Positions 2,806-35,400 of a stretch of 64,000 bases of DNA are shown here, piece by piece; within the stretch, counting starts at the first letter, position 1; each line of letters begins with the position of its first letter. Both the position numbers and the translations under genes were made by a program. The notes below the pieces were generated by a model. The model was not told the DNA's origin and did not search any database. It was given only the letters and a program-made list of their open reading frames with translations. Source of the stretch: Pelagomonas calceolata (taxonomy: Eukaryota > Sar > Pelagophyceae > Pelagomonadales > Pelagomonadaceae); assembly GCA_918797485.1 (NCBI GenBank), contig CAKKNE010000004.1, positions 1,736,001 to 1,800,000 on the forward strand. Direction: 5' to 3'.

Positions 2806-4402
2806 TGACCCGGAGCTAAAGCACAGCCGCCCACTCGACCCCCGGCGCCAGCGTTGGCCGCCGAGATGATTGCGATCCCAGAGCTCGCCGGCGCTGGCGC
2901 TCCGCTCGTCGCGCTCAGGACTCCACCCGACGCAACGTCGCTGCGTCCAGACAACAGGCTCAACGCGCCCCCAAGCCCCCTCGTCCGCTGCCGACGCTCG
3001 CTCGCGCGTCCGCCCTGCCGCCGGTCGCCGCGCGCGGACCCGACTCGGACGCTCCCGCTGTTGCCAGAGGTCGACGCTCCGGCGCTGAACACTAGTCGCC
3101 CGCTCGCGGCGCCCGCGCCAGCGTTAGACGTGCCGATACGCAGCGCCCCGCCGCTGCCATCGTCCCCCCCGGAGCCCGCGCGGAGGGTACCGCCCGTGAG
3201 CGTCGAGCTTCGACCGGACTCCAGGCTCAAGCCACCTCCAGACCCGCTCGTCCCGCTGCCCGCGCCCAGCCGAGTCGCGCCGCCTCGCCCCGACGAGGCC
3301 GCGCCAGACCCGACGAGCAGCGCGCCGCTGTTGCCTTCCTTGGACGAGCCTGAGCTGAACACCAGCTGGCTGCTCGCTCCGCCGCCGCCGCCGTTCGCCG
3401 TGCGAACGTACACCGCGCCGCCGCTTGTGGCCGTGCCTTCGCCCGTCTCGACGCAGACGCCGCCGCCCGTCGTCCCGGTGCTTCTCCCCGCGCCCAGCGA
3501 CGTCGAGCCACCCAAACCGCTCGTTCCACTACCGACGGAGACGCGCGCTACTCCGGCCCGCCCTCCAACGCTCGGTCCAGAGCCGAGGGCAACCGCTCCA
3601 CTGTTCCGTCCTTGGACGACCGAGCTAAATGCCAACCGGCCGCCCGACCCACTCGCTCCGCTGTTTGTCGACCCGAGACTGAGATACCCGCTGCTTGAAC
3701 AGGGCCCTCGCTTCCCTCTAGGAAAAGCGCGCCCCTGATGTCAAGATGCCGCGCCCAGTGCACAAATGGACGGACGAACCACTTTCAGTATCACGCTGCT
3801 ACCCGCACTGATACATACTAGTCCAGCTTGCCCACTTGACGCAGCTCCTGCAGATATGAGTACTGCTCCAATGTTGCCTGATTGAGAAGATCCCGAGCTG
3901 AACGTCAGCCTACCACTCGAACCCTGCACGCCAGAGTTACAGCCCTTGACAGTAACGGCACCACTGCTCACCGAACTGCCTTCCCCTGAAGCTATGTTGG
4001 TAAAACCTCCACTACTAACGGCGCTTTGACCCGAGTCAATGCGAATGTGAGCTGCTGAACCACTAGAGCCGCTCCCAGCTTCTATACCCATTGTTCCCCC
4101 ATGACCACCAGACGCTGTTCCGGTACCAAGTGTGAGCCATCCAGAGTTCCCTGCCATACTAGAACCAGTACTGAAAGTAAGCCTCCCGCTGCTGCCGCCA
4201 ACACCGCCGTTTGTGACCTTGACTGTGATAGATCCACTGCTTGTTACGGTGCCTTCTCCTGCACTTACACTGAGCAACCCACCGCTTAATGCGACGGCAC
4301 GACCAGGGAGAGCAAGGATGCCTCCCCCTAGTGCGCTGGTGCCAGTTCCGACGCTGATGAAAACATTATTGCCACGCCCCTCGGTCGCAGCCCCGGATCC
4401 AA
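2725..4402 (-). repeat. Duplicate block, copy with many small indels
   Basis: Matches 1-1692 almost base for base, but 2806-3790 carries about a dozen one- to four-base gaps and one insertion, mostly in C or G runs and GC-rich dinucleotides, plus a few substitutions. The part 3800-4402 is essentially identical to the clean copy. The clustering of gaps in homopolymers of one copy looks like uncorrected sequencing or assembly error rather than selection-free decay, where substitutions would be expected to outnumber gaps. Confidence 0.8.
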
Positions 4403-10400: not shown

Positions 10401-13400
10401 AGATCCCAAAAGAATACAACCCGAATTACTACGGACAGCTGACCCGCTGCTAAACACGAGATGACCACTCGCTCCAGATCTTCCAGCATTTGACGATCGC
10501 ACACAAGCAGCGCCGCTGCTTGCTGTGCTACCTGTCTGGGTCGAAAATGTGAAATGACCCCCCGTGTGCGACACGCCTCTCCCCGCTGCCAAAGAGATGG
10601 CACTGCCTGTTCCAGAGGTCCCGCTACCAGATGATATCACTACATGTCCACCGTGCCCGGCTGTCGTAGAACCTGAACCAAATAGTGCACTCCCAGCGTT
10701 ACCAGCGATTGCACCGTGCGAGCTAAAGATGAGACGACCAGCCGCTGATTTTGAGCTCCCAGCGTTGCTGCTATGTACAACGACCGTGCCCGCAGAAGTC
10801 GTTGCGCCTTCTCCTGCAGTCATTACCACGAAGCCTCCGGTTAACACAGTACTGCGGCCACTGTGTAGGGCGCCAAGACCACCAGCCCCGCTGCCGCTGC
10901 TCCCTACAGCCAAGGTCACGGCACCGCTTCTCCCGCCACTCGCTGAGCCCGTTCCAACGCGCATCATGCCGCTATTTCCGACTGAAGTCGATCCGGAGCT
11001 GAAGAGAAGACTACCAACCGAACCAAAGACGCCGCCATTTGATGTGCGCAACGCAACCGCCCCCGAGCTTGTCGCAGCAACGCAGCCAGAAAACACAGTA
11101 AGTGCGCCGCCTGTCCTCTTCGCTGGTGCCACCGACCGACCCGCCGCTATTACGATCGTCCTCTTTGTACCACTCGAGCCCCTACCCGTGATAAAGGATA
11201 TTGAACCTCCACTACCAGCAGTTGCGTCTCCAGACCCGAGGCAAAGTTTCCCAGAATTGCATGTTTTGGCCGTTCCAGAGCTGAACGCGAGACAACCACT
11301 AGATCCCAAAAAACCACCATTTGCCCCTATAATTGTGATAGACCCACTGCTGGAAGCACCGCTCTCGCCGGCTATCAGCGTAGCCTTCCCTCCTTCCCGA
11401 CAGACCGTGCGACCTGACTGACATACGACGAGGCCTCCCATACCACTCAAGCCTGGACCGGAAGTGACAAGTATTGCGCCTCCAGCGCCACCTGTGACCT
11501 GACCGGTGCCTAGCGACACGCCTCCGCTGTTGCTGCCATTTGGCAAACCTGTGCTAAAGACCAAATAGCCACTAGCTCCAGACGCCCCAGCATTAGCAGA
11601 ACAAACTACCATTTTACCCGAACTTGTTCCGCCAGAACCACCAGCCAATAAACCAACTAATCCCCCGGTTGAATCACATGTGCGCCCTGCAGCTGCTAAA
11701 ACAGCGCCAGCGCGCCCACTCGTTCCGCCACCAACAGAGGCACGAAGTAATCCGCCTGCTCCTCCTGTCGATCCACCCACGCCAACGCTGATCATACCAC
11801 TGTTGCCGCTGTATGCAGTGCCTGCACTGAATTCCAAACGACTGCTGGTACCACCAGCACCAGCATTTACCGATTGTAGGGCAATCGTGCCAGTTGATGC
11901 GGAGATGCCAGAAGCTGCGAGGGCCGCAAGGGAGCCCCCTGTGCGGTAGCCGCTACGTCCAGCTCGTGCAACTAGCTGACCCCCTATGCCGCTATTGCCG
12001 CCACCGGCTACGACTAATATCGAACCACCGCAACCGCCTGTCGCGGCAGCAGACCCTAATCTCAATGCGCCAGCATTGCCATCGTCGCTGCTACCACTAC
12101 TAAAAACAAGAGCACCGCTGGTGCCCGACACGCCACCATTTGTAGTCTGAAGGTGAAATGCACCCGATGTTGTGCCTGCCGCACCACCACCAGCAAGAGC
12201 AAATAACCCTCCTGTTCGTTCAGCCGTGCGTCCAGCAAGGAAAATTTCTGCGCTTCCTACGCCACTTTGGCTACTCCCGACACTAACGTATGTTCTGCCA
12301 GCACGGCCTGCGGAAACCGCACCGCTCCCAATAATTAGAGAACCGGAATTGCCAATATTGGCAGACCCTGAACTGAAGCAGAGACGGGCACTTGCACCAG
12401 CCCTACTCCCGCCGTTTGCGGTTCGAACACGAAACACACCACTAGTTGCTCTGGTCGAGTCTGTAGTCTGCATCAGCAGCTTACCACCGGACGCGGCAGA
12501 GCTTCGACCGGCCACGAGCATGGCAGAACCGCCAGAACCCGAGTCGCCATAGCCGACCGTCACGCTAGTAAAGCCCCCACTACCACCAGTTGCGATGCCA
12601 GAGCCAACCACACAAATGCCAGTGTTCCCAGACGAAGCTGTGCCAGTACTAAACGTCATGCTGCCGCTGACCCCTTCAGGACCACTATTTGCCGTTGCTA
12701 CCCTGACAGAGCCACTTGTGTGGAGCGTCCCTTCAGTGGAAAATAAGTTAACAGAGCCACCTGTACGGCTGCGACTGCGACCAGCATCTACCGTTGCCTC
12801 ACTGCCCGTGGCACTGGTACCGCTACCGGCCGTCAGGCGCACGAGGCCTGCCCGACCGCCAGTCGCTGCCCCTGAACCGGATTCGATGGCGCCCGCATTA
12901 CCATGTGATGCTGATCCTGAGCTAAAACTAAGTGCGGCCGATGAACCTCTCGTCCCTGCATTTGCAACCGTCACGCGAACAAAACCACTGGTTGTGGCTG
13001 CTCCTTCGCCGGTTGCTGATGCGAGGCAGCCTCCTGTTCCACTCCAGGTGCGCCCCGCCACGGTGCAAGCCACGCCACCTGTGTACGCACCGCGACCAAC
13101 GCGAGCAAAAATAGAACCGCCACGGCCGCCAGTCGCCGCGCCCGTACCGAAGACGAGCTCGCCTGAGTTGCCACGGGATGTCGTGCCGGTACTAAACCGG
13201 AGACTCCCACTTGCGCCACGCGTGCCCGCGTTGGGTGTGTATACGCGGACGCTGCCAGAGGAAGATGAAGCACCCCCAGCCGCGTTAAAATAGGCACGAC
13301 CACCGGTGCCTTCGTCGCTTCGGCCCGCCCTGATGGTGATATTGCCGCCGCGGCCGGACGTGCCATCGCCTGCACTCAGGACCAAGGCCCCCCCACGACC

Positions 13401-14410
13401 GCCAGTAGCAGCACCCGATCTGAGATTTATGCGACCAGCATTTCCACAGGTGCCGCAACCTGTCCTCATGTCTGCAAAACCAGAGACACCTCTGTCAGTA
13501 CTCTCTGCCGTCGCCAGAGAAATCTCGCCTGAGGACGTGCCGCGTGCGGAGCCACTGCGTAGATCAATAGAACCTCCAGACGCCGACGCGCCGTCACCCG
13601 CAGCAATAGTCCCGTCTCCGCCCCGTGTGGCAGCACCTGCTGCAACGCTCACGCAGCCGCCACTATTTCTGCGGTCTTCCTCTTCCGCTGCTGTGATGCC
13701 TGCGGTCACACTTATGCCACCCCCAATTCCAGAACGCCCCTGACCTACAATGCAGCACACGAAACCACCAGTCCCTGATGCCGCAGTTCCGGTCTCAAAG
13801 TTGAGTCTACCAGAGTTGCCGCAGGACGCGGTGCCCGATGTAAGTGCCAGCTCACCAGAAGCACCACCGGAACCAGCATCAGTTGTACGGAGCAAAATTG
13901 CCCCGGATGTTGACAGTACGCTCATTCCGCTATAAATATAGAACACGCCGCCAGAATCTGTGCGACCACGTCCTGCGCCACACGTCACACTACCTCCGGC
14001 CCCGAAAGCAACTGCATGGCTCCTCCCTGCCGAAAGTGCCATCAAGCCTCCTTTGTTGGAACTACGAGATGCGCTTCCTGCATATATTGCCGCGTCCCCT
14101 CCGTTTCCACTGTCTCCCACACCAACCGATGCGACAAAAGAGCCGCCTCCGCCACTTTTGGCAACACCTGAACCTAGACAGATCGCGCCAGAATCACCGA
14201 GGCTTGCCGTTCCAGTCGCTAGGAAATGCGCTCCACTTGTGCCTTTGATACCTGCATTTTGTGTCAACACGAGTATTCGACCGCTCTCTCCACTAGCTCC
14301 AGCGCGCCCGGAGCCCGAAACGAAACAAACATTCCCACCTACTGTTGACTTTCCCGTGACAAATGCTGACCGAAGCAGAGATTCGCCAACCTTGAGCACC
14401 AGATCTCCGC
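3741..14410 (-). CDS. Giant gene exon 6: regular 91-residue repeat array
   Basis: This 10,670-bp exon encodes about 3,550 residues. The units are about 91 residues long, each made of six sub-modules in a fixed order, with cores GTSGxGG, AGRSxxxTGG, GEGTxxSSG, NGGxxGxSGRLxFSSG, GNSGxxxxGSG and GRGGxxxxxVGSG. That gives roughly 39 units, well diverged from each other. The sub-module length of about 15 residues suits one turn of a beta-solenoid; this is inference. The frame closes at 3741 within the indel-bearing duplicate block, and the last 17 or so codons no longer follow the repeat, so this stop is likely not the natural end. Confidence 0.75.
3741..14410 (-). repeat. Tandem protein-coding repeat array, period about 273 bp
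   Basis: The exon is built from about 39 consecutive units of about 273 bp (91 codons). Unit boundaries can be followed by the recurring words SGRLxFSSG and GRGGxxxxVGSG in the translation. The opposite strand shows a matching chain of proline-rich open frames broken at similar intervals, a by-product of the codon bias (GGN, AGY, GCN) of the coding strand. Confidence 0.75.
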
Positions 14411-17400
14411 CTATAGTGTATGGTGTGTAATCGGTAGCCTGTCTACTTGCAAAAACACAGGTATAGCGCCTGATCCCGAAACAGCAGTGCCTGTCGTCAA
14501 GCTGAGGGCTCCGCTGCTACCTGCGCTCGTCGAACCTGTTTTGAGAGCAACAGCGCCACTTGCTCCGGTGTCCGATCCCGCAGCCGCTGTTGCCATGACG
14601 AGATTACCACTATCGCGGTCTACTCCCTTTCCCGTGGCCACGCGGACGTTGCCACCACTGCCGCACACAGTTCCACCGCCATCTACTGATATCATGCCAG
14701 CACGATCAGAAAGCGCTGCAATCCCGGCTAGAATACGAAACGAACCACCGGCTTGTGCAGCGCCGGTTGCCATGCATAGGCACCTGCGGGAAAATGGCTG
14801 TTAGGCAAGATGGAAGGCAGCATATTCTTATATACTCACCCAGAATCGCCGCGACACGTAGTGCCCGTGGCAAGTTGTAGCGCACCGCTATCGTCCTCGT
14901 CACCTGAATCAGCTGTGCGTAGCACAAGATGTCCGCTACCAGATGAGGTTCCCTGGCCCGTGGTAATATTTACCTATGATGTTCAATTAATCACGCCACA
15001 CGACTCAGATTCCAGATGGAAACACGGCGCTGGTGAGAGACATCGCCCCCTGGGTAACCCGGTCCACCAACGAGCGTCAAGGCGCCGCCTTCGTCTCGGT
15101 CGCCGCCAGAAGGGCAACAGAGCGCAATTTCACCTCCACTTGCCCGAGTTCGTGCTGATGTGTCACCGGCTGCAACACACAAGTCTCCAGCTGAGCCACC
15201 GCGCGCAGTTCCGACGCAGAGAGTCAAGCGCCCGCCTGTTGCCCCCTCGCCGTCTCCCGATCGCAAGTTGACAACTCCTGAGTTACCGTTTGACGATGTT
15301 CCGGAACCAAATCGTAGCATCCCTGAGGTACCTTCGCCCTCGACTACATTCGAACTCAGGAGCACTGCACCGGACGTGTCGCCGTCTCCGCCTTTCGCAC
15401 CAAGGTTGCCTCCAATTGCGATTGTCGCGATGCCGCCCGTGACTCTCGCTGCGCCACCAATAGTGCTTGGACTTGCTGAAGCTGTGGATAGCGCTGCTCC
15501 GGCTTCGAGGATCACGATGCCTGCGGCGTTGCCACGGGTCGCTCCAGCTGCAAGACTTGCGTTTGCGCCGTTTCCCTCGTCGCTGTGTCCGGCGGCAAAA
15601 GTAGCAATACCACCCGGGCCCTTGTATCCATTGCCAGCTTTTATCCGTGCCATGCCTCCACGTGCTCCATAGCCCGCCAATGCAATGGCATCTCCAGGAT
15701 GTCCACGGCGACTTGCCACACTGCTTGACCCGATCTCAATTGAACCGCCACCACTTCCCGCTGTGACAAAAGTAGTCCCTCCACGGCCGTCTGCTGGCCC
15801 GCCTGTTCCCAGGCGAGCAGAGCCTGATGATGCGCCTAAAAGTGTATCCGACAAGTCAGCAGAGCCACTAGTCAATTCTGCAGCACCGCTATTTCCGCTA
15901 GCGGCGGCTGCTTTGAATGAAATACTCCCGCTCGCGGCATCTGCACGTCCCGCGCCAGATGCAAATAGGGTGGACCCACCACGGAACGTACCTTTTCCCC
16001 CGGCCATCATAACGCAGCCACCACATGCACCGCCGTCGCCGAGGCACGCACTTGTGCAAGTGCTTTGACCGGCACGAAGAAAAAAGGTGCCCGATGGCGC
16101 TTGCATCTCCGTAGTGTCGCCCGCATTCGCAACAATGCACCCTTTAGCTTCATTCCCCCCCGATGGACTGCGGCGGACTCCCACCCCCCCCGCGCGAGCA
16201 CACGCACTTTTTCTTGCGGACATTGTGATGTGACCGACATCTGAGGCTGCACTAGTCTCAAGAGTAATCGCGCCACCCACAAGTGCAGCTACACCTAGAG
16301 AACCGCTATTTCCCCGCTCACTTTCTCCGCTTACTATGGTCACAACACCACTGACTTGTCTGCCACCGACGCCGCTGACGAGGCTAACAGTCCCACCATT
16401 TGCGCATGAAGATAAACCCGCGCTAAGGCTCGAGGAGCCACCTAAGTCCCCTGCCATTCCAGCATGTACCAGCGCACCCCCCCCCAGATCGCTAGCGCTA
16501 CCTGCTTGACACCCAACCTGGCGACCAGGGGCGCTGCCGCCGCCGCGACCACTAATCCTGACTCGACCGCCGATGGTGCCGCACCCTGCACTAAGTTGCA
16601 AGTCTCCTCCAGACATTGCAGAGCCTCCTTCGATGGTGACATTACCGCTCGAGTCACGAGCACATCCTGCCGCAAGACACAGTGCCCCAGAGGCACCGAG
16701 CAACGGACAGCCTGTGCCGAGGACAGCAGACCCGGAGCTACCCTGCTTTGCCTCGCCGGTCTGTATGGCGCAGTTTCCTGTACCACCACCGCAAGATCCT
16801 GCGGCAGGCGAACGTATGGCAGCGCAGCCGCTCCATGCATTATCACCGCCGCCTGTGCTCAGCACAACATGACCGTCCCCGTCTTGCCCACACTTACCCG
16901 CAGAAATGTTCGAACTACCGCCGTGATAGTTCGACTGGTCACCTCCTAAGAGCAGAATTGCGGAACCGATAGCAGTATGCGCGTTTGACATGCCCGTCAG
17001 AGAGATACTCCCGCCACCTGCGAGGTGACCTGACGTACCCGAACATAGATAGATTCTTCCAGCACGTTGCGCAGCGCCGGTACTGAAGGTACCTACGCCC
17101 GAATTGCCGCCTACGGAGCAGTCACCTGTCGAGACAAAAGCATGGCCGCTCGCAACATTGGCAGCCGTGCTGAGCGCAGCACTCCCTCCAGGCCCGGTCC
17201 CGATGACAAAGTTGCCAGCTGCTGAATCAGTGCTGGCACCAGCATAGAGTCGATGACAGCCCCCGCCTTTGCCTGCACGGAGGGTTGCAGTAGCGCCACT
17301 GCCTTGGGTCGAATGGCCTGCTGAGACTAGCATTCGTCCACTCTGATCGCGGGTAGCTGACCCGCCCATCGCACTGAGATCTCCACTATCTCCCGCGGCT

Positions 17401-20400
17401 TGCCCACTTCTCACGAATACGGCACCGCCTGAACAACCCTTGCCAGCAGCTAGTCCCAGCTTACCACCAATGTCGCCTTCGCCAGAGTCGAACCCCAGGC
17501 AGCCCCCGTTGAGCCCCCAACCGGAGGAAGCCCTGAAGCCTGGACCCCGATCACCCTGGCCCGTGCGAAACGACACGGCGCCAGATGCTTCGCCACTTCC
17601 CTCCGTTGCCCCACTCCGCAACAAACAGCGCCCGCTCTCTGCTTCACCAATGCCAGTTGCGCTCGTCATTAATATTCTCCCACGGCCATGCCCGTTCGCC
17701 ATCGCCCCTCCAGTTCTGACGCACGTAGCTCCACCAACCTTTGCTGACGAGCCTGCCAATAGAGAAATGGACCCACCGTCACCCCGTCCAAGGGCTCCAC
17801 CAGCTAGTGCCACTGCGCTACCGCCACCCTTCTGCGCCTGCCCCGCGCAAGTGACGACAGCACCGCCAGTATCGACGGCCAGTCCAGAGCTTAGCACGAC
17901 GCTGCCTCCTCTCCCGGCTCTACCAGCACCCGTCAGAATGGCCAATCTGCCAGATGCGCCTCCAAAGTCAGTGCCTGTCATCAGGTCTATCTCACCGCTG
18001 CAAAGCGCACGACTCGTTCGCAGGGCAAAATTTCCGCTATGCGCTGTGCCCGCCCCGGCGATCATCTGGATACCGCCACCGTGACCGTCTCCAGAAGCGG
18101 CGCCGGCAGTCATGACGAGCCCCCCGCCGGTCGCCAAGCCCGCGCCCGCAGCAAGTTCCAGTTGGCCACCATGACTTGAGGCTGTCTCTCCGCCAGAAAG
18201 CTGTGCCTGGCCACCCAAACCCGAGGTGGAACTGCCAGCATTAAACGTATTACTCATTGGCTTTGCTACAGTGTTGCCAGCAGTAATTTGGCCATCTCCA
18301 CCGCGAGTCCCTGAACCTGTGCGAGCTAGTAGCATACCCGCACGAGCCGTGGCCATGTCATCACCGAGGCTAGGGTTGTGACCAGCAGCGGCGATCAAGG
18401 GACCTGAGGATATTTTGCTTGGCCCAGAAAAGAACACGATGTCTCCCATACATCCGTTGCTACTTTGGCCCGTGACGCAGCTGATGCCGCCAGAAGAACC
18501 AATGCGGTGGCCAGTGTATATCCCCAGGCACCCGCCATCGTTTGTTGGCGTCGCTGCTGTGCGCATGTGTATGTTGGCGCGATGTGAATTTGCCGTCTGC
18601 GCTCTCGTCCGAACGATGAGCTCGCCACTACCGGGCACGCCGGTCCCTCGACCAGAAACAAGGTCAAACTTTCCACCGTTGTCCATGCCCGTACCTGCAA
18701 AGAGTCGTGCGCTCGTCCCAGTAGATTCTGTGCTGAGCTGGCAAATTTCGGCTTGACTAGACTCGAGACCAACACTACCACCGTCGTTGAGCATCGACGT
18801 GCCCACACTGATGCAAGTTAGGCCGCCACGTCCACTAGCCCCGGCACCAGATGACATGTCGAGCTTGCCCACACTAGGAGCAGCTCCCGTCGAAGTCACT
18901 ATATTCCCGGAAGCCTCGGCCGTAGACGATGTGACACCAAATTGACCGCTCACACCCAAGGTGCCTTGTCCAGCACCCATTACTATTCCTCCTCCAAGTG
19001 CTAAACCTTGCCCAGTCTGCGTGCCTCCTACTATCATCGTTGTACCTCCTTTAACGCCAGATATTTTAGCGCTGCCGCTGACAAGGCAGAGGGCACCACC
19101 GACAGACGCGCTCTTGCCCGCTCGACAAGTGACTCCTCTGGAAACACCAAACGACGTGGGGGGTGAGTGTACTGCGTCAGCACCGATATTCATGTCGCCG
19201 CTAATTGCGCCGTTTCCACTTGAGAATACGCAGCTCCCACCTGTTGAGGCCGCGGCGCCAGAGTAAAGTCCAACGCTTCCTGGGCGCATGTCTGGTCCAC
19301 AAGAACTCCCAGCCTTAAGTGAGACGTTTCCACTGCCGCTACCCGCATATACATCACCAGAACTGATGCGGATTGTGCCGGTCATGCCGCTGGCAGCCGC
19401 TGCTTTGAAGTGCACTGCTCCAGATCCTCGCGTCAGCGTCGATCGTGTCTTGATATTTAGGGCGCCCGTGCCGCCAATTGAACTTCTGCCACTCGAAATG
19501 CCAATAGAGCCACTTACTGTTTCGCCTGTAGCTGCGCTCAGGTGTAGCACCCCACCACGCGACAGCTGGCCGTTGCCAGCCAACAGTCCAACTCGACCGC
19601 CAATGTCAGCCGCACCAGCAGTGACACGTAGCAGCCCCGCGGCCGCGGCGGCACCTCCGGCGTAGATATTGGTGTTTCCACCGGTGATTCCTCCGCTGCT
19701 ACTGCCGCAACCGAGTCCCGCATCGCCGACGATTTGAGCACAACCAATCCCGAGTTTAATCATGCCAGAAGACCCAACAACTGCACATCCCGATTGGCAC
19801 GAAGCTGATCCCGACGTATATGTGGATTTAGATGTAACCGCAGACATGCGCCCTGATTTCGTGGTCCCCTTGCCACTCTGGGCACAAGCACTCGCTCCCG
19901 GTCCGTATGCGGATGAACCGCCGAGTAACTCAATGCGCCCGCCATATTCCCCACCAGAACCGGCTACCATGACAAGCGGGCCAGCTGCCTGAGCAGCGTC
20001 ACCGGTTGCAATCCGCACAGCCCCCCCACTGGACATCAGACTGAGGCCCGCAATGAGCGTGATATTGCCCGCCTTGAGGCTACCCTGTCCGCCGCAAAGG
20101 TGTATCCCCCCGCCCCTATGGGTACCTCCCCCTCCAAACAAAGACGCCGAGCCACCATTCGCACCCGTGCGCGCAGCCAGAGAAAGCCGCACATTGCCAC
20201 CTCCCTTGCCCGTTGCGTGGCCAGCAGAAGCTCGAATGTTACCTGACAATGAAGCTGCCGAGCCTGTGGAGACTCGAATTGCACCCGTATCTGCAACTGT
20301 GGCTTCAGTTACCACTAGAATATCCCCGCTTTTATCCCTGGAGACTCCGCCCGTCGTCAAAGCAGCTGGTGCACCAATCTCACTTCCAGCTCCTGTTTCT

Positions 20401-23400
20401 AGTTCTATCTGTCCCCCGTTTTCAAAACCATTGCCGCTACGCATACATATTGCGCCGCCTCCTCGTCCACCGTTGATTTGGGCATCACCCGCGGCTGAGC
20501 CAGTGCCACCAGTGCCGGTTCTCAACAAGACGCCGCTTGCGGCTGACCCATCACCAGAGCAGAGCATAGTCGGAGGTATCGCATAGTCTGAAGAGGAGGA
20601 ACTTAATTCAAGAAGACCGCCACCACGAGAGACTAAGTCAATGCGTCCTGAACCAACGTTCGATCGACGCGTTTGCAAGAATGCACCAGATTCTTCTCCG
20701 GCTACCGCCCTGAACTCGTCGTCTGCGTATGCCACAGTGGTGCCGCCGTACGGAGCTGAGCCAGTGGCATCATGCCCAATCGTCACACATCCCGTTGCCG
20801 GCGAACCACAACACAAGGACCCACCACCGGTGCCCCCACCTGCCTCGATGCGTGCAGTACCACCTACCAAAGAGCCAACGCCAGCAAATGCTAGCGCTGC
20901 GGCCCCGTGATATTTACCTCCCCCTGCGGCGAAGCACACACGCCCCCCCAGGCCACTGGTGCCCATCCCGCTGCTGCACACCAGATTATTTACACGGTAG
21001 GCATGACCGGTATTCAAAACGCATGCGCCACTGGCGCGTGCTGAGCCAGTGATCATGTAAACGGAACCCGAGTTGCCCTCTGATGATATACCCGTCTTCA
21101 GATCGGCGGTCCCAGAGGCCCACGACGTCGCAGTCCGGGCAGTAAGACTTCCGTCACTGCAACTAGAAGTATAGCACACGTGTTTAGCCTGCAGTGCACC
21201 TATTAGGTCGAGAACTAAACCCTGTTTGTCAACTTTGAACATCTGATCTAGTGAGAAGGCGCCGTCTTCGTAGTTGGACACACCCACGTGAACACCTAAA
21301 GAGTCGACGTGGTGGAGCTCCTGCGCAATCACACCACGAGCTGAATGGCCCCTGTCGATTCCGCGAAGGGATGCCCACGCCTCTGAATACTTGTAAGATG
21401 CTAACGGCACTCTGGTGAAGCCTTCGTACACTGCCCCGAGGTTGACGTTATACCTGCAGCAGCACAATCAAGAAGGTTTAGGAGCATTAATCAGTAAATG
21501 ACCCGCGCTTCGTCCGCATGTTATTCAGGACGCTGGAAATTACGAGATGTCGCGCTTGATGCGGCTGTCAGATGAGTACGTCAATTCTGTCATTCTTAGT
21601 GGAAGACAGGCCACCGCAGAAGCCCCGTCCCCTTCTTGACGAAGGTCAAACTTGGTACCACAAGCTCGATCGTTGATGTGCATTGAAATATGGCTACGAC
21701 TGTCACCGAGTTCAATGCTATTGACGCGGTGATGATTCGACCTCGAAAAAAAACGAGCTCCTTGCAATTGGATTTTCGCATCATCAATAGTCAGCGATGA
21801 CGTCCCTCGCGCGAGGGTGACATGACCCACACCACCACAATGTCCAAGGCCAGAGCGGACGGCGACACACCCGCCTTCGCCACCAGAGAGGATGTCAACA
21901 TTACTGCTGGAGCCCGACTTGCCCGCGCCAACTATGACAGAGCCACCGGTTGAGCTATACGCACGCCCAGCGTCCAACAAAGTTGCGCCATTAGCTGAGT
22001 GGCCGGATCCGGCAGCGACCCAAAATGAACCGCCAGTCTGACCATCGCCACTGTAAAATGTGCAGTCGCCGCCCGCCACGCCACTACCAGCGCAAAGACT
22101 CGACATACCACCTCCCTGGGTATCGGAGCTCCCCGTTAGTATATTACACGCCAAAGCAGTCGCTGCATGCCCCGTGCCCAGGCGCACGGGGCCCGACGTC
22201 CCGCTGGCCGCTTTTCCGCTCGACACGCGAGCGCTACCGCTGTTTCTCATGCCTGTGCCACTGCCGATCGCGACGCTACCACTCGAAGCTGTGCTGCTAG
22301 TGCCCGAGGACATGGCGACGGTTCCCCCTGGAGCCTCCCGACCGTTACCTGCCGCGAGCTTGAGATCTCCGCCTTGACGGCCATGGCCGGCTCCGCCACC
22401 AATACACCCACCTGCGCCACTGTGAGGAGTTCCGCTTCCAGCACGGACCGCGACGCCGCTCCCGTCGACGTCAAACGACGAGCCGCCGCAGAGATTCACC
22501 GCGCCAGCTCTTCCGGCCGCACCACTTCCTAGATGCACACATCCACTCGTAAACGTGGTCGCAGGCTGCGATGCTACGTTTATACGCCCGCTGGTCTGCT
22601 CGGCGTCCTGGAAGACCGTGCACAGTCCAATAGTTCCGCTTCTTTGGCAATTGGCACCGCTCATTGCAATCGCAGCCCCGCCCCTCTTACCTTCGCTTGA
22701 ACCCGCATGGCCGCTCAACGTCGATCCAGAGTCTCCAGATACTAAAAGACAACCAGCTTCGCCATGCAAAGATGTCTCGCCGGCACAGAAGGAGATACTC
22801 CCCGCACGCATCTTTGCCTCAGCCCCAAGCAAATGGATGGCGCCGCCAATACGTCCGCTACCACTTCTCATTTTTATGCTGCGCAAATTGTCGCCTGCTG
22901 TTGAACTCACACGCACGCTTCCCCCCGTGCTCAAGAAGCCCCTCCCTGTAGATAAGCAGCAGCCATTGACATTGGCATCGTCCCTCGAACTACCAGTCGA
23001 AATGCATGTGGGGCCGCTCGAGTGAGACCGACCGCTGCTTACGTACAAATCTCCTGTCTCTCCGACTTTCGTTGAGGATGCTCCACTCAAGACGCCGATA
23101 GTGCCAGAGTCGCCACGAGCGCTCTCGCCGCCACAGATTACCAAGCACGAGCCGATAGCGTCACCGTTCCCCGCACTGGCAATGAAGTTTCCTCCTCGAT
23201 GGGTGCTATGAACCGCCTCTCCAGCGCCAATTCTCACACCACCACCTCCACCGTCTGGGTTTGCACCGCCGCCACGCAGTAGAACAGAACCGCCAGATCT
23301 GGCTGCTCCTGCACACCCGTCAATTTCACCTGGAGTGTAGGCCGTGCTCTCGGTCTTTAGGAATATCATGCCAGGTGCAGTCTGGCTTCGGCCGGAAGAG

Positions 23401-26400
23401 ACAAGCACTGCCTGTGCTGCATTTATAGAGGTAGAACCCCCTGATGACATTTTGCTCCGACCACCCCCCACCACCAACTCGCCACCGGTTTGTGAGTTCC
23501 CAGTCCCCGCGCCCACAAGCAACGGCCCGTCTCTCTGCTGCCCAGAACCAGAACGCAATGAGGGGGCGGCACCAACACCCCCTCGACCAACGAGTGATCC
23601 TCCCGCGCAAATCTGGATGCTTCCTCCAAGGACTGATCCTCGACCTGCTAGTTGCACCAAGGTGCCACCCTTTGCACCAGCACCGCTTGAACCAGCCTCA
23701 ACTCCTACACCGCCTCCCTCGCCCACTAGCGCAGTACCTGCATTCAAGTTTACTTGTCCGCTTCCGCCAATACCACTCGACCCCGTGCTAAAGAAACCGT
23801 GGCCAGATCTATTGTGGCGGTTTTCTCCCTTTGTCTGTATGCAGTAGTCCCCGGACTGGTGCCTTAAGCCGCTTCCTCCTGCTATCTTGATAGCCCCACT
23901 CATGTGACCAGTGGCTGTCTTTATCAGTGCCGTGCCGCTAGCTCCAGTCTCGCTCTTGCCGCTGCAAAGACGCACATCGCCGCCCGCCCCCCGTGTCCCA
24001 CTACCGCTCAACACTCGAGCTCCTCCGCCAGTGGATCCAGCACCAGCAGTAGCCCGGATAAGCCCAGCACTGGCAGCGCCTGATCCTGATCGTAGGCAGA
24101 GTTTCCCCCCAGCGTCGAACCGGGACGCATACATGAAGGCCGTTATCGAGCCTGTTGTCTGGCTGTTGCCACTCTTAAGCTCTAGGGACCCCCCGACCTC
24201 ATTTTGCGGACGGACCTGACCCGACGTAATGCAAATGCCACCGCTTGTCTCATCTTCTTCTCCCCGATAAGTGTTCGTTGTTGTCAATGCAATTGCATCA
24301 TCGCTACTGTCGCGACCAATCCCAAGCAACTTTATGTTACCACCGATTCCGTTTATGCTGTGACCTGACTCGAGTATTAGCATGCCACCCTCACCAGCAT
24401 TGCCGGCCTTCATGCCAATCGAGCCGCCCGCACCGGCGTTGCCCGCGGACGCGCCTCCACTCTCCAGCAATATTACCCCAGGGACAAATTCCGAGGCCCC
24501 TCCATTCAAGAACACGTCCCCGCCAAATTCGCCAGTTCCACCGTGTGCACAGACCTCACCTTTGCCATGAATCCTCATCGCTCCCCCAACAACAGCTGCC
24601 CATGGACTAGTTGTGCTGCCACTTGACTGCCCAACACGCAATGCCATTTGAAAGTTGCCGCCTCCTTGCGACAGACTTGGTTTTGTCTGCAAGCTCACAT
24701 GGCCAGAAGTCTCAGATAGTCCACTGGCCACCAACACCCGCCCACTTTTCTCAATTCCGGGATGGATCTCCGAGCCGCCACTCTTGAAATGCACCTGGCC
24801 ACCTGTGGTACTGGCTGTACTCGAATCTGCTCCGAAGCACACGCCGCCACCCTCGGATATGCTACCTGCACCTCCCCTGACGTAAATATCGCCACCACCA
24901 GACAAACAGCTTTTACCTGCGTGAACATCTGCAGATCCACCGCGCCAACTCCTCCTGGGCCCGCTTCCTGCCGAGGCCACAATCGCCCCCCCCCGACAGC
25001 ATTCGCGTCCAGACACAATGCCAATGTGCCCAGCTTCTCCAAATGGGACATTCCCGGTCTCCATTTTCACTGAGCCCGAGTCTCTGCTTTGATTTGTGAC
25101 AACATTGAGTTCAGCGGAGCAGCCGGCAATTGTCCGAAGCAAGCCACCAGCAAAGGATGCGCTGTTTCCCCCGCGGAGCTGCACATTGCCGCCAGAGCCC
25201 CGACAGCAACTAAAAGCTGCCCAGAGACGAAGGTGACCCGCTGACTTTCCAGGGGCACTGGCGACATAGATATCGCCGCCTTGCGATCCATCAGAAAGAC
25301 CCGCGTCCAGTTTTACCCGCCCCGCAGCGGCCCAGGCCCCAGACCCGCCGCTGACCGATACCATACCGCCAGACAGCCCGCGCCCGCCGAAGACATTTCC
25401 GGTACCACCTTGTCCGTCTGGCGTTTCAAAGCGGGGGATCGAACCAGCGCCCAGAGATAATAATGGAGATGCTCGATCACTGCCGACCCCGCCATCCACG
25501 GTGATTGCCATGCAGCCGGAAGCTCGTGTCGAAACGCCGGTACCCAGGCGCACGGGGCCGGACGTCCCGCTGGCCGCTTTTCCGCTCGACACGCGAGCGC
25601 TGCCGCTGTTTCTCATGCCTGTGCCACTGCCGATCGCGACGCTACCACTCGAAGCTGTGCTGCTAGTGCCCGAGGACATGGCGACGGTTCCCCCTGGAGC
25701 CTCCCGACCGTTACCTGCCGCGAGCTTGAGATCTCCGCCTTGACGGCCATGGCCGGCTCCGCCACCAATACACCCACCTGCGCCACTGTGAGGAGTTCCG
25801 CTTCCAGCACGGACCGCGACGCCGCTCCCGTCGAAGTCAAACGACGAGCCGCCGCAGAGATTCACCGCGCCAGCTCTTCCGGCCGCACCACTTCCTAGAT
25901 GCACACATCCACTCGTAAACGTGGTCGCAGGCTGCGATGCTATGCATACAGCGCTCTTCTTGCCATAGCCATTAATGGCGACTTCACCTCCATGCGTCCC
26001 TCCCGAGACTACTGCGCTGCCACCTGGACCGCACCCTTTCGAATTACCACTCAGGATGGAAAGTGTAGCTTCGGACGGTCGCGAGCAACCTAGGATACTT
26101 ATTGAGCTCGACTCACTCCGATTGTGCGGTTTCGATGCTCGAAGGTAAATTGAGCCCGCCTGTGCATCTTTGGGGGCATCCGCACGCCCGGACGACATGA
26201 GAGTGTTGGCTGCTTTGCTCATAATATCAACATCTTCATTTGCCCGAAGGACTACTTGTGTAGATCTGGATTTTATATGGCCGAAACCGGACCTTAGAGC
26301 AACGTCTCCCGCTCTGGACGTGTGAGAGCAGTGTGACCGTATAACCACAGCACCCGAGTTCAAATTTCCTCGGCCAGAACCTAAGCTTATGTCACCACTT

Positions 26401-29400
26401 TGCAGCGACCCAACCTCAGTACCCAGAGTAACACTGGCGCCAAGGAGGTCGAAAGAACCGCTATTCATCTGGCCGTTTCCAGCCGTAACCGTTGCTTCGC
26501 CGCCGTTGGGAGAGGAACGGCCCGCCGAATATCCAATATCACCACCTGCGCATACTTCAGAACGCCCAGAGCCGCAAACGACGTCACCACCGGTCGCGAC
26601 GTGCCCTCGACCAGATAGCAAAGTCAAAGACGCCCCATTATTCCGCGCACGACCAAGAACCACGCCGCAGTTGTTCAATTCAGCAACTATTCGACTGCTA
26701 CGATAGCCGCCACCAGCATTTAGCGCAAGGCAGTCATTCGCAGAAATGGCCAGGGCCCGTTCGCCAATCCCCGCACAAAGCCTTGCCTCCCCGGCAGTTC
26801 GTGCGTTGTCACTGGTCAACAGATCAATGCTGCCGCCACGTATTCCACTTGCAGCATCGCCAGCACGAAAGTGTATGCCACCAGACGACGCATCTGAGGC
26901 GCAACCTGTCTCAACGGAGAGGTCGCCACTATGGGCGTGATTATCCGAGCGAACTCGCAGGTTCGAAGAGGCGCGATCGCTTCCCATTTCGACTCGATAT
27001 CGTCCAGCCTGTGCCTGAAGGCCGGCAATAGAGTCCAGTGCAAGCGACAATGTATTTATCTGATGAAAGTCTCTCATTTCCATGTCCGTATCGGGTAAGG
27101 AGCACGAGGGAAGTACGTCGACGTGTTCTGGGAAAACGTTGCGTAATTCCTGTGCAATAAGTCCGCGGACCAAGGTTTCGTTGCAGGCATGCATAGAACA
27201 CCACGCGTTAGCATAACCATATGTCTGGAGCCCAACTTTTCCGAGCCGCCTGTGAATGTCATCTATATCAGCGGCAAAAAGATCCTTTTTAATACGTTGG
27301 TCCGATCCATCGGTCGCGTCGGGTGTATTCACGTTCACGTCCGATATCAGTTCTATAATACCACTTTCGTTTTTCTCGAGACGTACACGCTTGGCTCCAA
27401 TTCCAAATCCGATGCATCCATCTAAAGAAATTATTCCAAGCTCGCCTTTTGTACCAGCAATAAGCTCAACGTCACCCTGACTCAAGCACGCTTCCGCTGA
27501 TTTTTCATCCCCTTTCATTCCTTTCATCGAAAGAGTACCCGTGTCGCCAGTGGCGCACAGAGCGTCGCCAGTTGCGCTTGCCTCCGAGTCACGCATTCCC
27601 GTGGCGGTGGCACTGCCATGGCCAGAGCTAGCGCCAGAGCTTGTGCCTGTTTGAAGACTAACTGTGCCACCTTTCCCTGCGGAATTGCCAGTTAATATGC
27701 TGACAATTCCTGTGTCTGCTGACGATAAAGAGTCCGAGGTTGCAACGGTCACAGCTCCCGTGGCACCGCCTTCTGTTTTCCCGGATGACACGTTTACCTC
27801 CGGCGCAGTCGTTTTTTTTCCAGCGCGCATGTCAATGATACCACCGTCGCCAACCCTCAATGTCCCAACGTTATTCGCAGCGCCAGTCATAACGATTATG
27901 CTGTTTCCCGATGCAGCACGGGCCTCCCCGCCGGTGCCGCTCTTGGCTGCGGCCGCTGCAACGCGCACATTGCCGCCTGTGAAAAGCATACTACCGCCGT
28001 GACCTTCCTTTGAAACGTTTGCGCAACACAAACATGCTGCGGCCTCGGTACCACCAGTGATGGCTATATCACCATCAGGACTCGACTCTATCACGGCCGA
28101 CGCACTGGCAGCATCGGACTCGCCCATGGCCATTTTCACGCAGCCACCATGAGTTTCTGCATCACTAGTTCTTAGTGTTGTCCGTCCCTTAGCCCCTGCG
28201 CCGACTCGGACAGCACCAGCTGTCGTAATGATTCGAGCGGCACCGCCTGTCCCGGCACAAGAGCTTCCGCTCGAAACAAGAACTCCGCCGCATGAAGCTA
28301 CACTTACGTTGCCTCTCTTTTCTACCGTGAACTCTATGTCTCCCGCAACACGCGAGCTCCCCGTTTCCACGAAGACGGCACCTGCTCTGCCCGCGGTCCC
28401 GGAGCCCATGCGTAACTTGCCCGTAGCTCCAGATGCTGTCTGAGATTGTATTGAGACGCCGCCGGTCAGAGCCGCATCGCTAGTGCCCGACATGAGCTGA
28501 AGGGCGCCTCCAGTGACCTTTTCTGTGGCCCCGGCGCCCAACGCGATCCCAGCAGCCCCAACGCCCGATTGGCCACATGCAAGGCTTAAACCGCCTGAAA
28601 CGTAAGCAGAATTACCAGTTGCAAGAAGAACCGCCCCGGACCGTTTTTGTCCTGTCCCAGAACGCACAAAGATGCGGCCGGAATTTCCCGTGGTAGGACC
28701 GTTGGACGTCTCAATGTTCACGTCCCCACCAAAATATCCCGATGCACCCGAAGCGGCTGACAGGTGGATAGATCCACCCGAGTCGACGCGTGAAAACCCG
28801 GCAGCGAACGAGGCGCTGCCACCACAAAAAGTTGAGTCATCGCCCCCAGTGACCTGCGAACAACAAGGATAATAAAGAAAAAGGTCAAAGACGCGGCAAA
28901 TCAGGTGGTGACATTATGCGTAGCGCCAGCCGTTACACAAATGGATGCGCCTTGACCTACCTGAGACCGACCAGCAATGAGGGTGAAGTTCCCTCCACAT
29001 GTTCCATTTCCCGTCTCTAGGGAGAAGGTGCCAGAATTTAAAGCTTGCGCGACGTTTGTGCTACTCCCCTTGTCTGTCGCCAGGAAAATATATCCCGACG
29101 TGCCCTCCTCCAAGATCTCACCTTGACACGCACCTGAAATCAAGGCCATACCCTCTGAGGCACCTGCGTTTCCAGTGGCGGAAGCCGGATTCCACAAGCC
29201 TCCGTTAAAGCGAACATTTCCGCCACATGCGCCGAACGTCGTATTGCCTATGCAGACCGCAACCGTTCCCGTCGAAGCAGAGCTCGATGCTCCAGTAGAT
29301 AGAATAGCGTCGCCAGATGTGGGAGGTGTACTGCCAGTTGCACATGCCAGCAAGCCACTCGACGCGGCATCGCCTGTCGAGACCCGTGCGGATGCATTCG

Positions 29401-32400
29401 AGGCCAGGCCGCCCATGGCAGTGAGTTGACCGCCGACGCCACTTGGTGCAACTGAGCCTATAATTGCGACTGTGCCAGAGCAAGAGCCAGAACCAGAGCC
29501 GGAGCATATCGTAATGGCGCCCGCAGCAGCTGCCAAGTCACCGCCCATATTACTAGTGGTAGTCCCGCTCGCAAGAATTAGACTACCTGAGCCAGCACTG
29601 GAGCCGACACACGAAGTATTAAAATATATCACTCCAGTACCTTGGGCAGTGGATGATCCGGTGACTAGAGCGACGGTTCCGGCGACGGCCTCCTGGGTAC
29701 TACCCGATGATAGAGAAAGATTGCCAGAATAGTCTCCGGAACCCGAAGACAGGTTGAGTGAGCCGCCGGGTCCCAGAATGGAGACGGCGCCACCGGGGGT
29801 ACCTCTCCCTGCCTGCAGAGACAAAGCTGCATTAGACTCTGTAAGAGGATTAGTAGTATCCCCGACTCTAAAGCAGATGTCACCACCATCACTTTGTGCA
29901 TTACCTGCTAAAAGTGAAAAGTTGCCAGACGCAGACGCATCTCCAGAGCGCAGGGATATGTCCCCGGCTTCGAGCCGCGCGCTTCCACTCGTCGTACCAC
30001 CGCATCCAGAGCAGATGGATACACCTGCAGCGACCCCGGCCCCCGTTCCGACAGCGACACAGATAGCTGCACCAATACCCGAACCTCCAGAGCCGACGAG
30101 CAAGCTAATCGCACCGCCCTGGTCGCCAGTGATCGCATCACCCGAGCTGAGGCGCAGCATGCCCGAGTTTCCGGTCCCTGTAGGCGCGGTCAAAGCATCG
30201 AGTGCACCTGTTTGGGCGTTTGTGTGCGCCGAGGAGAAACTAGCTGCTCCCGTCTGAGAGGACCGCCCGTCACCGCTGATGCACTTGACATCACCACCCT
30301 GAAGTGTCGAAGACCCGCCCGTGATCACGAACTCTCCACCTTCTGCCGCCGACTCCCGAACCGTTCGAAGTGAAACCGCGCCCCCAGATTGGTGGGCATA
30401 ACCAGCCACAGCGATAAAAGTTGCAGTCTCACCGCAAGCACTCATGTTGATAGCGCCAGCGGTGCCCGTCGTTGCGTTCCCTGATTTAATTACGATTGAT
30501 CCAGAGGTTTCTGACGTAGCGGTGCCACTCTGAAATTCCAGGCTTCCACTCGAACCCGCCTCGCCTCCCGAATTAGCTGATGCTACAAGCACTGCTCCGC
30601 TAAAGTGTGCACTTTCGCCAGAGCGCAGAATCACAGAACCTCCCGTGCAAGTTCCGCTCATTCCACCGGTAAGTGTTGCAGCTGCACCGGCGCCACTGTG
30701 TGCACAACCACAGGTAACGCATATTTCGCCCGGTTGCTTACCTGCACCTGTTGCGACAACTACTGGCCCAGAGTCGCTCGTGGCATTCCCCGTGCAGATA
30801 CTTAGTTGCCCTGTGCAGGCGCCAGTGCTGGATAGGCAACTCACGACCCCGCTCCGAGTTGTTGACCCCCCTGACTCAAGGTTTATGCCCCCACCTTGAG
30901 GACTGCTTCCACCACCGGCGCCTAACAGAACCTCACCGCCCGAATCATCCTTTGCTAGGGTGGCACCGGCCAATACCGCCAAATTTCCAACCAGCTCGCT
31001 TGAATTGCCGGTCTCGAGAACGACTGGGCCGCTACTAGTCTCGGCTGCTCCAGTTGCAATGACATATGTGCCCGTGGCATGACCAGAACCTGTTGATGCG
31101 TTTAGGTTGCCAGAAAGTAGATTTCCGCTCCCGCCCAAAATGGTAGCCGAGCCGCCATTTCCCAAATTTGCAGAGCCCAAGCGCACCTGGACACCACCAC
31201 CATTCCCATTCGTGGCACTGCCGCCGCTCATTATCATATTTCCGCCAAAAAAACCGGCACCACCAGCGGAGCCCACTACCCGACCACCCTGGTCTCCGAT
31301 ACCGGCCATAGCAGACACGCTTCCACCAACTTTTGCATCTCCAGCAGCAAGGCCCACAGCACCGCCGCCTGGCGAGTCTGAAGTGCCGGTCACGAGCCGA
31401 ACCGCACCACTGAATTCCCCGGAAGTCGAGTGTCCAGACAGCCATGTGACGTTTCCAGAGTTGACTGCAGTGTTGGACATGACCTTAATCATTCCGCTGT
31501 CCTTGGCCGTGCCACCCTGTAAGCAGACGCCACTTGCTGAATTGTCCGAACTTCCACCGTCCGCAACTATAGCATTTGTTGCCTGCCCATGCTTGGCGCT
31601 ACCCGCAGAAAGCGTGATACCCCGAGCCAAACTTGATTCGGTTGGTTTTGAGTTTCCCGTGATGAATTCCACAGTTCCTACAATGCCTGACGCTGCGTTT
31701 CCCGTGACAAAGGCGAGTTTCCCTGTCGCATCGGTGCCCCCCTCCACGACGTCAGCTGTTCTAAGACAAGCGAGCCCAGATGTACCAAGAAGACCGAGAC
31801 CAGTTGCGAGGGCCACGGTACCGCCGCTATCCGCACCGCCGCCCGTGGCTACCACGTTCCCCCCCTCAACATCTTGCATGGTTGATAATGCTGCGGCGAT
31901 TGAAAGATCGCCTCCCCTCGCACCACCGTTACCAGCAGTCAAGTTAATGGCACCAGCAGTAAACGATGCCGCGGTTGGGCCCGTGGCCAGAATGACGCTC
32001 CCGCTAGTGACGATATCAGACCCTGCAACAGCGTGGCCGGCGCGGCAGTTTACACCGGCAGATGTCGCTTGAGCTTCACCTACACGTGCCAGGACCTCTC
32101 CAGTACTTCTTACGGTGGCAATTCCGGTGGCGAGTAAGAGTTTTCCACTCGAGGTAGAGGGTACGCATTTGTTGGCAGTGAGTAGAGTAATATTGCCGCT
32201 TGTTGAACCGACGCCGCTCCGGGCTTCAACTGGACCACCGACCGCGTTGGAAGATCTACCTGCTACTGCGGCAATGAAGCCACCGACGGCGTTCGTGTCT
32301 TCTGCCCCGCCTGCATGTATGATGAGGTCACTATCGGCGCTACTTGAGCTGGCATCGCCAGTTGAAAAGCGTATCATCCCAGAGTCCGTTCCTAACGCTG

Positions 32401-35400
32401 CGCCGCTCGCAACGAGAACACTTCCAGACGCGCGAGTGGGTCCGTCGGTTTCGACGCCCAAGTTGCCTGACGACTGACGTATAGCTCCACCAGACACGGC
32501 TGTCGCACTCCCACCGAAACTTCCGGAACCTGCTTCGCCAACCGAAGCGCCTGCTGTTAAATTAATGGCACCACCGGAACCAATGCTACCCGCACCGATG
32601 GCCAGAGCGATATTGCCACTACGCCCGCCTGCGGCGCAGCCAGTGGCTAGTACTGCCTTGCCGGACTCACCAGCAGTAGCAGTCTTTGTGTCGCAAAAGA
32701 TTGTGCCCGAAGTTCCACAGGTCCCAGCATTCTTGGTGTTGAGATTAACGGCGCCGCTGGTGGTAGTCGTCGAGGCACCTGTGGCGATTATGACAGCACC
32801 ACCAGACGAGGTAGGAGCCTCGCTGCTGCCTGCAATCAATTCAGCAGAACCTCCAGATGCGCCGTTTGACCAACCGGCCACCGCAATAGCGCGACCACCG
32901 GCCCCTGTGAAAGGTTTGATATTGTCACCACCTGCTGCACGTACGAAACCACCGTCGGCAAATTCACCCGATGCTGTCCCTCCAGAACAAGATAAGTCAC
33001 CAGCGCTCGCCGAACCAGTTCCAATCAAGAGCATTAAGGAACCAGCAACACCGGTCGCAGTGCCCGTTGAAAGTTCTAGAGACCCAGATCTACTAGAAGC
33101 AGAACTTCCAGTACGACAAAGAATACGACCCGATACCATGTTGGCTGGACACGTCGTGACGTAAATATCGCCAGAGGTTGTTGACAACGACTTTCCAGAA
33201 GATATATAGATAGCCCCGCCGTTGGCGCCGTCATCCCCCTGGCAGCCGCCGCCTGATCTTAGTGTTGCATTGCCACCGGCACCGCTCGTACCGCCCCCCA
33301 CACGAAAATCTATGAACCCTGCGGTACTTTCCAGGGCGTCACCAGACAACAGAGACAGCATGCCCGAATTTCCGCCGCGCGCAGAGCGGGCAGAAGTCGT
33401 GCCTGTAGCAAACCACATGGCACCGGATACACCTGATTTGCCGGCATTTGCAGTGTAGAGCAGAATACTGCCACTAGAACTCTCGCTCCCCCAGCCAGAT
33501 CGTAAATCTATGTCGCCTCCCACCCCTTCCTGCGAAAATCCTCCGTAAAGGCGAGCACTGCCACCGACATCAGTGGCGCCGCATCCCCCTGCTGTTCCTC
33601 CGGAGACATAAATAGCACCGCCCGAGCCGCCTTCTGCGTCGACTGCAGTGCCAGGCCCACCGCGAAGACCGACGTCACCACCGCAAGCAGCAGCGTCTTC
33701 TGTCTCGCCCCCACGGATTGACAAAGCACCGCCTGCTGCCGAGTCGCCGGACCCAACAGCAAGGTCAATATCACCACCAATACCTACAGTCGCAACTCCG
33801 GAACTGACCAATGAGTGACCCGAGTTCCCAAAGGAAGCCGAGCCTGTCCTCGCGATGGTACTTCCAGATGTACCGTCACTACCAGAAGAAGCGGTCGCAA
33901 CACGGAAGATGCCCGAGGATGTTAATGTACCGTATCCAGAAACAAAATTGAATGTGCCGCCCGAAGAGTATGCAGCTGTCCCGCCATACGCACGTACGTT
34001 TCCGCCAACATCATCCTCCTTGCAAAGTCCGGACGCTTGACCCCCACAGACGTAAAGACCACCACCGCTACCACCGCCATAGCCGTACGTACTGCTACCG
34101 TGACCAGCTACGATGCAGACTGCACCGCCGATAGCTTCGTCAGCGGAGCTTTCGCCAGCAAGAGCGAGGACATCACCGCCGTCACCCGAGTTGCCCACGC
34201 CAACAAACATCTCCACTGATCCGCCCATACCTTGCGTGGCCGGTCCCGATGAAGTGATAAATCGGCCTGACGCTCCATCAGAAGTTGTGCCTGTAGCAAA
34301 GTGGATCGATCCTGAAACTCCCGACATACCGGCATTTATGGTATCCAAGGAAAACGTTCCTGATGTTGTCATCGCCGATTGCCCAGATACCACTCGCACG
34401 CCCCCCCCCGTCTTATCTGCAGCTCCACCACCACTGGCCGCAGAGGCGCTCGTACTTGAAATTATCACAACATCTCCCGCAGTACCTGAAGTCCCACTTC
34501 CGACTGCAAGGTGGACGTACCCTGCACGTCCCCGGGTGGCAGTTGATGTGACTACCCGGCACGACCCAGTTGCGCCACCAGCAGCTTCCTCGTCAAGTCC
34601 CGTTGCACCGGTCGAGAGATCAATGGCGCCAGACACACCAGCCTCGCCGGCGTTCGCAGTTGCGAGATCAATAACACCCGAAGACCCTCCTTCACCATAA
34701 CCACTGCGCGTTAGCAAGGAGCCACCACAGCCCGTTCGTGCAAATCCACCAACACAAGAAACACTGCCACCATCGTCGACGAATGCACCGCCTTCTGCAC
34801 CTCCCCCCAGAACACAAATAGCACCACCACAGCCTCCACCGCTTATCTCGTTGTCGGAACTTCCTGCACCGGCAGAGATAGATATGGCGCCGCCCACCAT
34901 GGCGTCTGCGGTGGTCTCACCTGCAATTACAATGACACCACCACCATCACCCGAATCGCCTATACCAACTCGCAGCCAGATATTTCCGGCGGCACTGCCC
35001 GAGGATGAGTCACTTCCACTATTGCAACTGGCTTCGCCTGAATATAGGGAAACACAACCAGAAGCACCATCACTTGCCGTGCCCGTTTCTACATTGATTC
35101 TACCTGAAGTCCCTCTCGCCCCGCCATCCGGAGTCGCCACATCCAGCCGCCCCGAAGTCGTGACCGTAGACGATCCGGCAACAAGCCCCAGGTAACCACC
35201 AGTAGATTCGGCCGAGGTTTGACCAGCTGCTATTTGTCCAGCTCCACCTTCACTTGAGTCCCCTAGACCAACATGTACGAAAATAATGCCACCAGTGCCG
35301 GAGGTAGCTGATCCAGAGGCCAAAAATAGATATCCGCTGCATCCTAAGGCACTTGATCCCGTTGAGAGGGTGATAAGTCCGGAGACACCCTCGTCGGCCA

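Follow-up and report, generated by a model that had tools for sequence, protein, structure and literature searches.

The window, that is, the whole stretch of 64,000 nucleotides analyzed here, corresponds to positions 1736001 to 1800000 of contig C4 of Pelagomonas calceolata, a tiny, common picoalga abundant in the open ocean; the genome was searched as 8 contigs totaling 32,445,274 bases. A giant gene occupies window positions 3747..38347 on the minus strand. After removal of five short introns of 107, 90, 68, 56, and 59 bp, splicing of the window joined the exons 38347-28961, 28853-21544, 21453-15042, 14973-14840, 14783-14470, and 14410-3747 into 11,407 codons with no stop. Introns 1 and 2 are well founded, and the last three exon junctions were inferred from the frame of the repeats, the last of them as a putative GC-AG junction. 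The frame of the first exon is open upstream of the Met at 38347, as far as 38665.

Similar repeats extend below 3747, in sequence that is richer in G+C and often changes frame. Giant-type repeats with G+C-rich units and broken frames were seen in C4:1716001-1736000 and in window positions 1-3747, running 20 kb past the window. The broken frames may reflect an assembly error, decay, or unseen introns, and either the complete protein could greatly exceed 11,407 residues or the assembly could be wrong here. The downstream flank is the giant gene's own repeat tail. Among seven frames scanned on the upstream flank, three matched cellular enzymes or a flagellar protein in Pfam (radial spoke protein, DEAD helicase, and class I tRNA synthetase), one carried a TIG domain, and three were without a family. 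The flagellar protein is radial spokehead-like (PF04712, E 1e-88), and its gene lies at 39601-40899, adjoining the giant.

The giant protein starts with a Met and, on visual inspection, a putative signal peptide, MATRSTGLLLVLSYALPLVTWA, at 38282..38347 on the minus strand, and this signal-like start suggests a putatively secreted protein. It is followed on the same strand at 38123..38215 by a PSI-like (plexin repeat, PF01437) Cys-rich stretch with a Pfam E value of 1.6e-4 and 22.4 bits, just below the curated cut-off of 23.1. The Cys-rich N-terminal stretch is 57% identical over 56 residues to the start of a paralogue on contig C1, and the N-terminal 449 residues gave a best E value of only 0.13 against PDB sequences. 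The spliced frame, with the modules described below and 106 upstream codons counted in, consists of 22.5% Gly and 15.1% Ser. Over the whole protein, 15 residues is the strongest lag both for Gly and for hydrophobic residues, and both modules are, as read from the sequence, embedded in this 15-residue Gly/Ser-rich repeat. The coding repeats between the modules contain a 400-bp duplication on the minus strand, one copy at 22177..22576 and the other at 25543..25942 with 3 mismatches, a product of recent duplication or gene conversion. Hydropathy detected no clear transmembrane segment in the modeled residues, which extend as far as 3747; all 19-residue windows above 1.6 were Gly-rich repeat stretches.

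Two Peptidase_S74 (ICA) modules are located within the chain. Module 1, at 26985..27305 on the minus strand, comprises residues 3646-3752, with the Ser codon at 27305 and a predicted cut between G and SDQRIKK; it is preceded by a shaft-like region at 27306..27473 (minus strand, residues 3590-3645). Module 2, at 21168..21572 on the minus strand, comprises spliced residues 5557-5661, with the Ser codon at 21572 and a predicted cut between S and SDSRIKR; the region before it spans 21573..21773 (minus strand, residues 5490-5556). The initial annotation had placed the cut-site Ser residues at 3646 and 5557, and independent splicing with the Met at 38347 returned the same numbers. It had also proposed a profile search, and both modules exceeded the curated cut-off of 22 bits for PF13884, module 1 with 32.4 bits (E 1.1e-7) as a 289-aa slice and 27.4 bits (E 4.1e-6) within the whole 2,436-aa exon, and spliced module 2 with 26 bits (E 1.1e-5). 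The six-frame PF13884 search of the genome found module 1 at 35 bits and did not find module 2, because a 90-bp GT-AG intron on the minus strand (21454..21543) splits it right after SDSRIKRDIS. Similarity to the C1 paralogue resumes after this intron. Module 2 was considered as a broken remnant, which was rejected as splicing restores the PF13884 match.

The sequence marks named in the initial annotation (SDxRxK, GxIAQEL, and LQA) were all found in both modules, the core reading GLIAQEL or GVIAQEL. In 11,407 residues, 0.03 occurrences of SDxRxK are expected from composition and two were observed, each where an S74 match begins, and chance motifs were rejected on this count.

S74/ICA modules form the last domain of phage fibers, and the chain of the MYRF regulators contains a single internal one; in viruses and in MYRF three chains are joined and then cut. 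The annotation's statement that S74 is normally C-terminal was examined in a set of 41 S74 loci, viral and bacterial, which two narrow searches (A5 and A7) had supplied and which covers less than the whole family. Three were cut off by the locus end, and in all 38 with a readable stop (12 viral, 5 of these duplicates; 26 bacterial) the distance from Ser to stop was 98-224 residues. Three other P. calceolata S74 proteins end 94-112 residues after the Ser. The statement thus held for viruses and bacteria in this set, but a comparison with phages only was incomplete, since the domain of MYRF/MrfA is internal. The giant does not carry S74 last in its chain: 7,761 modeled residues follow the Ser of module 1 and 5,850 that of module 2, so the described mid-chain position stands, and the layout is kept in the paralogous giant. 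The observation of two internal S74 modules is confirmed and stronger than first noted.

Internal self-cleaving S74 in eukaryotes is represented by MYRF (PMC3742443). The ICA domain of MYRF/MrfA (PDB 7dc3) shares the internal position, but the giant has two modules per chain, a signal-like start, and thousands of residues behind each module, and the trimer helix of its module 1 is apparently half as long in the predicted model. No DNA-binding or other MYRF family was detected by Pfam at E ≤ 0.01 in the modules and the four main exons of the six (7,701 + 3,554 aa). According to the same paper (PMC3742443), the MYRF N-terminal part is on the cytoplasmic side of the ER, whereas the modules of the giant would have to work in the secretory path. 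A bacterial-type relative, P0005, also starts with a signal-like stretch, as judged by eye.

In the chaperones of phage endosialidase, T5 tail fiber, and neck appendage (3gw6, 4uw8, and 3gud) the domain ends the chain, in contrast to the internal modules of the giant. Bacterial S74 proteins like P0005 and P0002 (loci L050-L067, from Bacteroidota in nearly every case, with L065 from Verrucomicrobiaceae) resemble the algal modules in SDRRIKKD...Y.Y...KKGVIAQE...DFHSVDYD, but their S74 is C-terminal, with a longer helical tail. These loci also carry an insertion, estimated by eye at ~70 residues, that separates the IAQE core from the DFHSVDYD helix and that the algal modules lack. The S74 fiber proteins of polinton-like viruses, as described in PMC12220804, are likewise large, modular, and fiber-like and occur in protists including algae. 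They carry one S74 copy in at most 3.9k residues, compared with two internal copies in more than 10,000 residues in the giant. Among the matches listed in a search of open-licence PMC papers, there was no algal or giant S74 polyprotein and no two-copy internal S74 in a giant secreted protein, in agreement with the initial view that such an arrangement is not described in algae.

The six-frame PF13884 search of the genome gave seven matches at E ≤ 0.001 and an eighth, weak one at E 0.03. On C1, two S74 matches (49.3 and 42.7 bits as slices) lie within one 2,804-residue frame, which belongs to a second giant whose start is PSI-like; with the N-terminal 315 residues as a query, 9 matches were listed, every one of them within the C4 or the C1 gene. 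The modules are spaced by 1,911 residues in the C4 giant and 1,913 in the C1 paralogue, and the paired modules are 43 and 48.5% identical. The last 60 residues before module 1 are 39% identical to those of the paralogue and the region before module 2 is 25% identical; 300 random repeat-to-repeat comparisons gave 30.8 ± 4.9%, and therefore only the region of module 1 stands out, that of module 2 being no more similar than random repeat pairs. Elsewhere in the genome, two weak S74 matches were found, one of 27.8 bits in a 1,201-residue frame (C4:2030974-2031129) and one of 20 bits, below the cut-off, in a 706-residue frame (C6:2455949-2456077). Another protein encoded in this genome, with S74 at its C terminus (locus L012, 3319-5163; C6:1771318-1773162), contains Cys/EGF-type stretches that match the PDB 9ufe chains "Tubular mastigoneme protein" and OCM3/5/6 (best E 1.4e-10), and S74 may also serve flagellar hairs in P. 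calceolata.

Outside the genome, two homologue searches yielded P0001 (source tag eukprot, 2,635 aa) and P0004 (jgi, 532 aa), in each of which repeats of this kind flank a single internal module, and P0003 (ENA, 560 aa, 35 member sequences), which matches the C1 gene at 100% identity throughout the query region; P0002 and P0005, from the same searches, are bacterial-type proteins with a C-terminal S74. A third search with a long carrier query gave none among 95 candidates at E ≤ 0.01. In viral contigs, 0 of 242 pattern stretches were confirmed with A1 and 3 of 49 with A2, and in bacterial and archaeal contigs 0 of 44 with A2. The tree has 16 rows, with one starred branch of 13 and most branches weak. 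The six giant modules lie on one side of a branch supported at 71/86, not starred; the modules 2 of both genes join (92/93) and the two modules 1 do not pair. From this topology, the order of the two modules is probably older than the duplication of the gene. Whether the algal modules derive from MYRF, bacteria, or phages is not settled by the tree.

The Ser-Lys dyad, five residues apart (SDxRxK), and the IAQ core are identical in all six giant modules, as are both pocket Tyr, at a mean identity to MYRF of 27%. Across the 12 columns named at the cut site in the MYRF paper, each window module keeps seven, and positions 621, 657, and 667 differ from MYRF in 6/6 modules. Four more printed columns (634, 647, 671, and 678) were left out of this count and are kept in 0, 5, 5, and 0 of the six modules; mean pocket conservation with them included would be 60%. 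Module 1 has Thr at the equivalent of MYRF K671, and the MYRF mutant K671A still cleaves; module 2 is without an equivalent of E647.

A first AlphaFold2 model of module 1 from five rows (mean pLDDT 37.8) was left out of the structure search, and the 32-row alignment A8 with bacterial S74 loci, which misplaced the C-terminal helix across their insertion, was unused. The model taken further is a monomer built from the 11-row alignment A9, and in it module 1 has the ICA fold. MYRF was the best match both of this model among PDB structures and of a four-module profile against the PDB; module 1 alone gave no match to PDB sequences at E ≤ 1. The dyad sits in the weaker blocks of the model (51 and 69), and the helix after the core extends over 18 residues, with low confidence beyond. 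In the other five modules no long helix-like stretch after the core was seen by eye, so that nothing like MYRF N670-K705 is evident in any of them. This stretch is the a4 helix of MYRF, in which L692A or R695A alone abolishes cleavage (PMC8326128). The MYRF family is marked by a C-terminal coiled coil of four heptads and by a transmembrane segment behind the ICA. The apparently short C-terminal helix is the main weakness of the mechanism favored below and a reason for caution about cleavage; flanking repeats might stabilize the trimer instead of a long helix.

By sequence and predicted fold, the giant thus carries two internal MYRF-like ICA (Peptidase_S74) modules with intact Ser-Lys dyads. 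We favor, with a probability of about 0.58, the reading that the gene encodes a secreted giant fiber precursor in which these modules trimerize, fold, and cut. Three chains would meet at each module, which would register and fold the stretch upstream. Trimer formation would move the cut site into the pocket, where Ser3646 and Ser5557 would attack the preceding bond with the Lys at +5 as the base. The expected products are an N-terminal part of ~3,620 residues, a middle part of 1,911 with the first ICA at its new N terminus, and a C-terminal part of at least 5,851 residues carrying the second. Internal modules could in this way split the folding of a very long trimer into sections, each cut once finished.

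The favored precursor competes with two further readings. In the first, cleavage would leave the segments attached to each other as a nicked trimeric rod, with the ICA trimer gripping the end of the upstream shaft and the cut locking the folding but releasing no fibers. The cleaved MYRF strand threads the ring of its neighbor like a "cable" through a "donut" (PMC8326128), and the downstream side of the giant, 5,850-7,761 residues, is no small disposable cap. The two products separate in endosialidases and MYRF, however (PMC3742443), and we regard the rod as unlikely. Somewhat less probable still are modules that no longer cut and are kept as trimerizing or folding nodes on one continuous fiber. 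Such nodes would suit the short-looking helix, seen in the module 1 model and by eye in the other five, and the three divergent pocket positions, but would have no need of Ser and Lys, and these residues and both pocket Tyr are kept throughout despite the low identity to MYRF.

An integrated viral fiber gene, for example of a polinton-like virus, or an assembly artifact is very improbable. In PMC12220804, S74 genes are described as occurring throughout the polinton-like viruses in most groups of eukaryotes, often in large modular proteins, yet the ochrophytes are excepted and viral S74 domains are given as single copies, frequently at the C terminus. The introns and the signal-like start, the cellular genes on the upstream side, and the paralogue on another chromosome argue against this origin, and from these together the giant is read here as an algal gene; the paralogue also has an independent record in P0003.

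The self-processing fiber polyprotein first proposed for this locus is therefore partly supported, with MYRF needed as the first comparison. In its full form, it would be a self-dividing eukaryotic polyprotein, a giant secreted chain whose serial MYRF-type chaperone-proteases trimerize and then cut the chain, with no external protease, into several very long trimeric fibers; each internal chaperone would assist the preceding segment and cap the following one, in a layout probably older than the gene duplication. This fuller version is somewhat more doubtful than the cutting precursor itself and is put forward tentatively. If true, serial internal S74/ICA copies would represent a third use of the module, assembling and dividing very long fibers, and would raise a question open to testing, namely how trimeric proteins longer than 10,000 residues are folded in cells. 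As the nearest solved relative is MYRF, the finding would bear on the origin of the internal ICA of animals, and it would offer an initial hint about the surface of this common picoalga.
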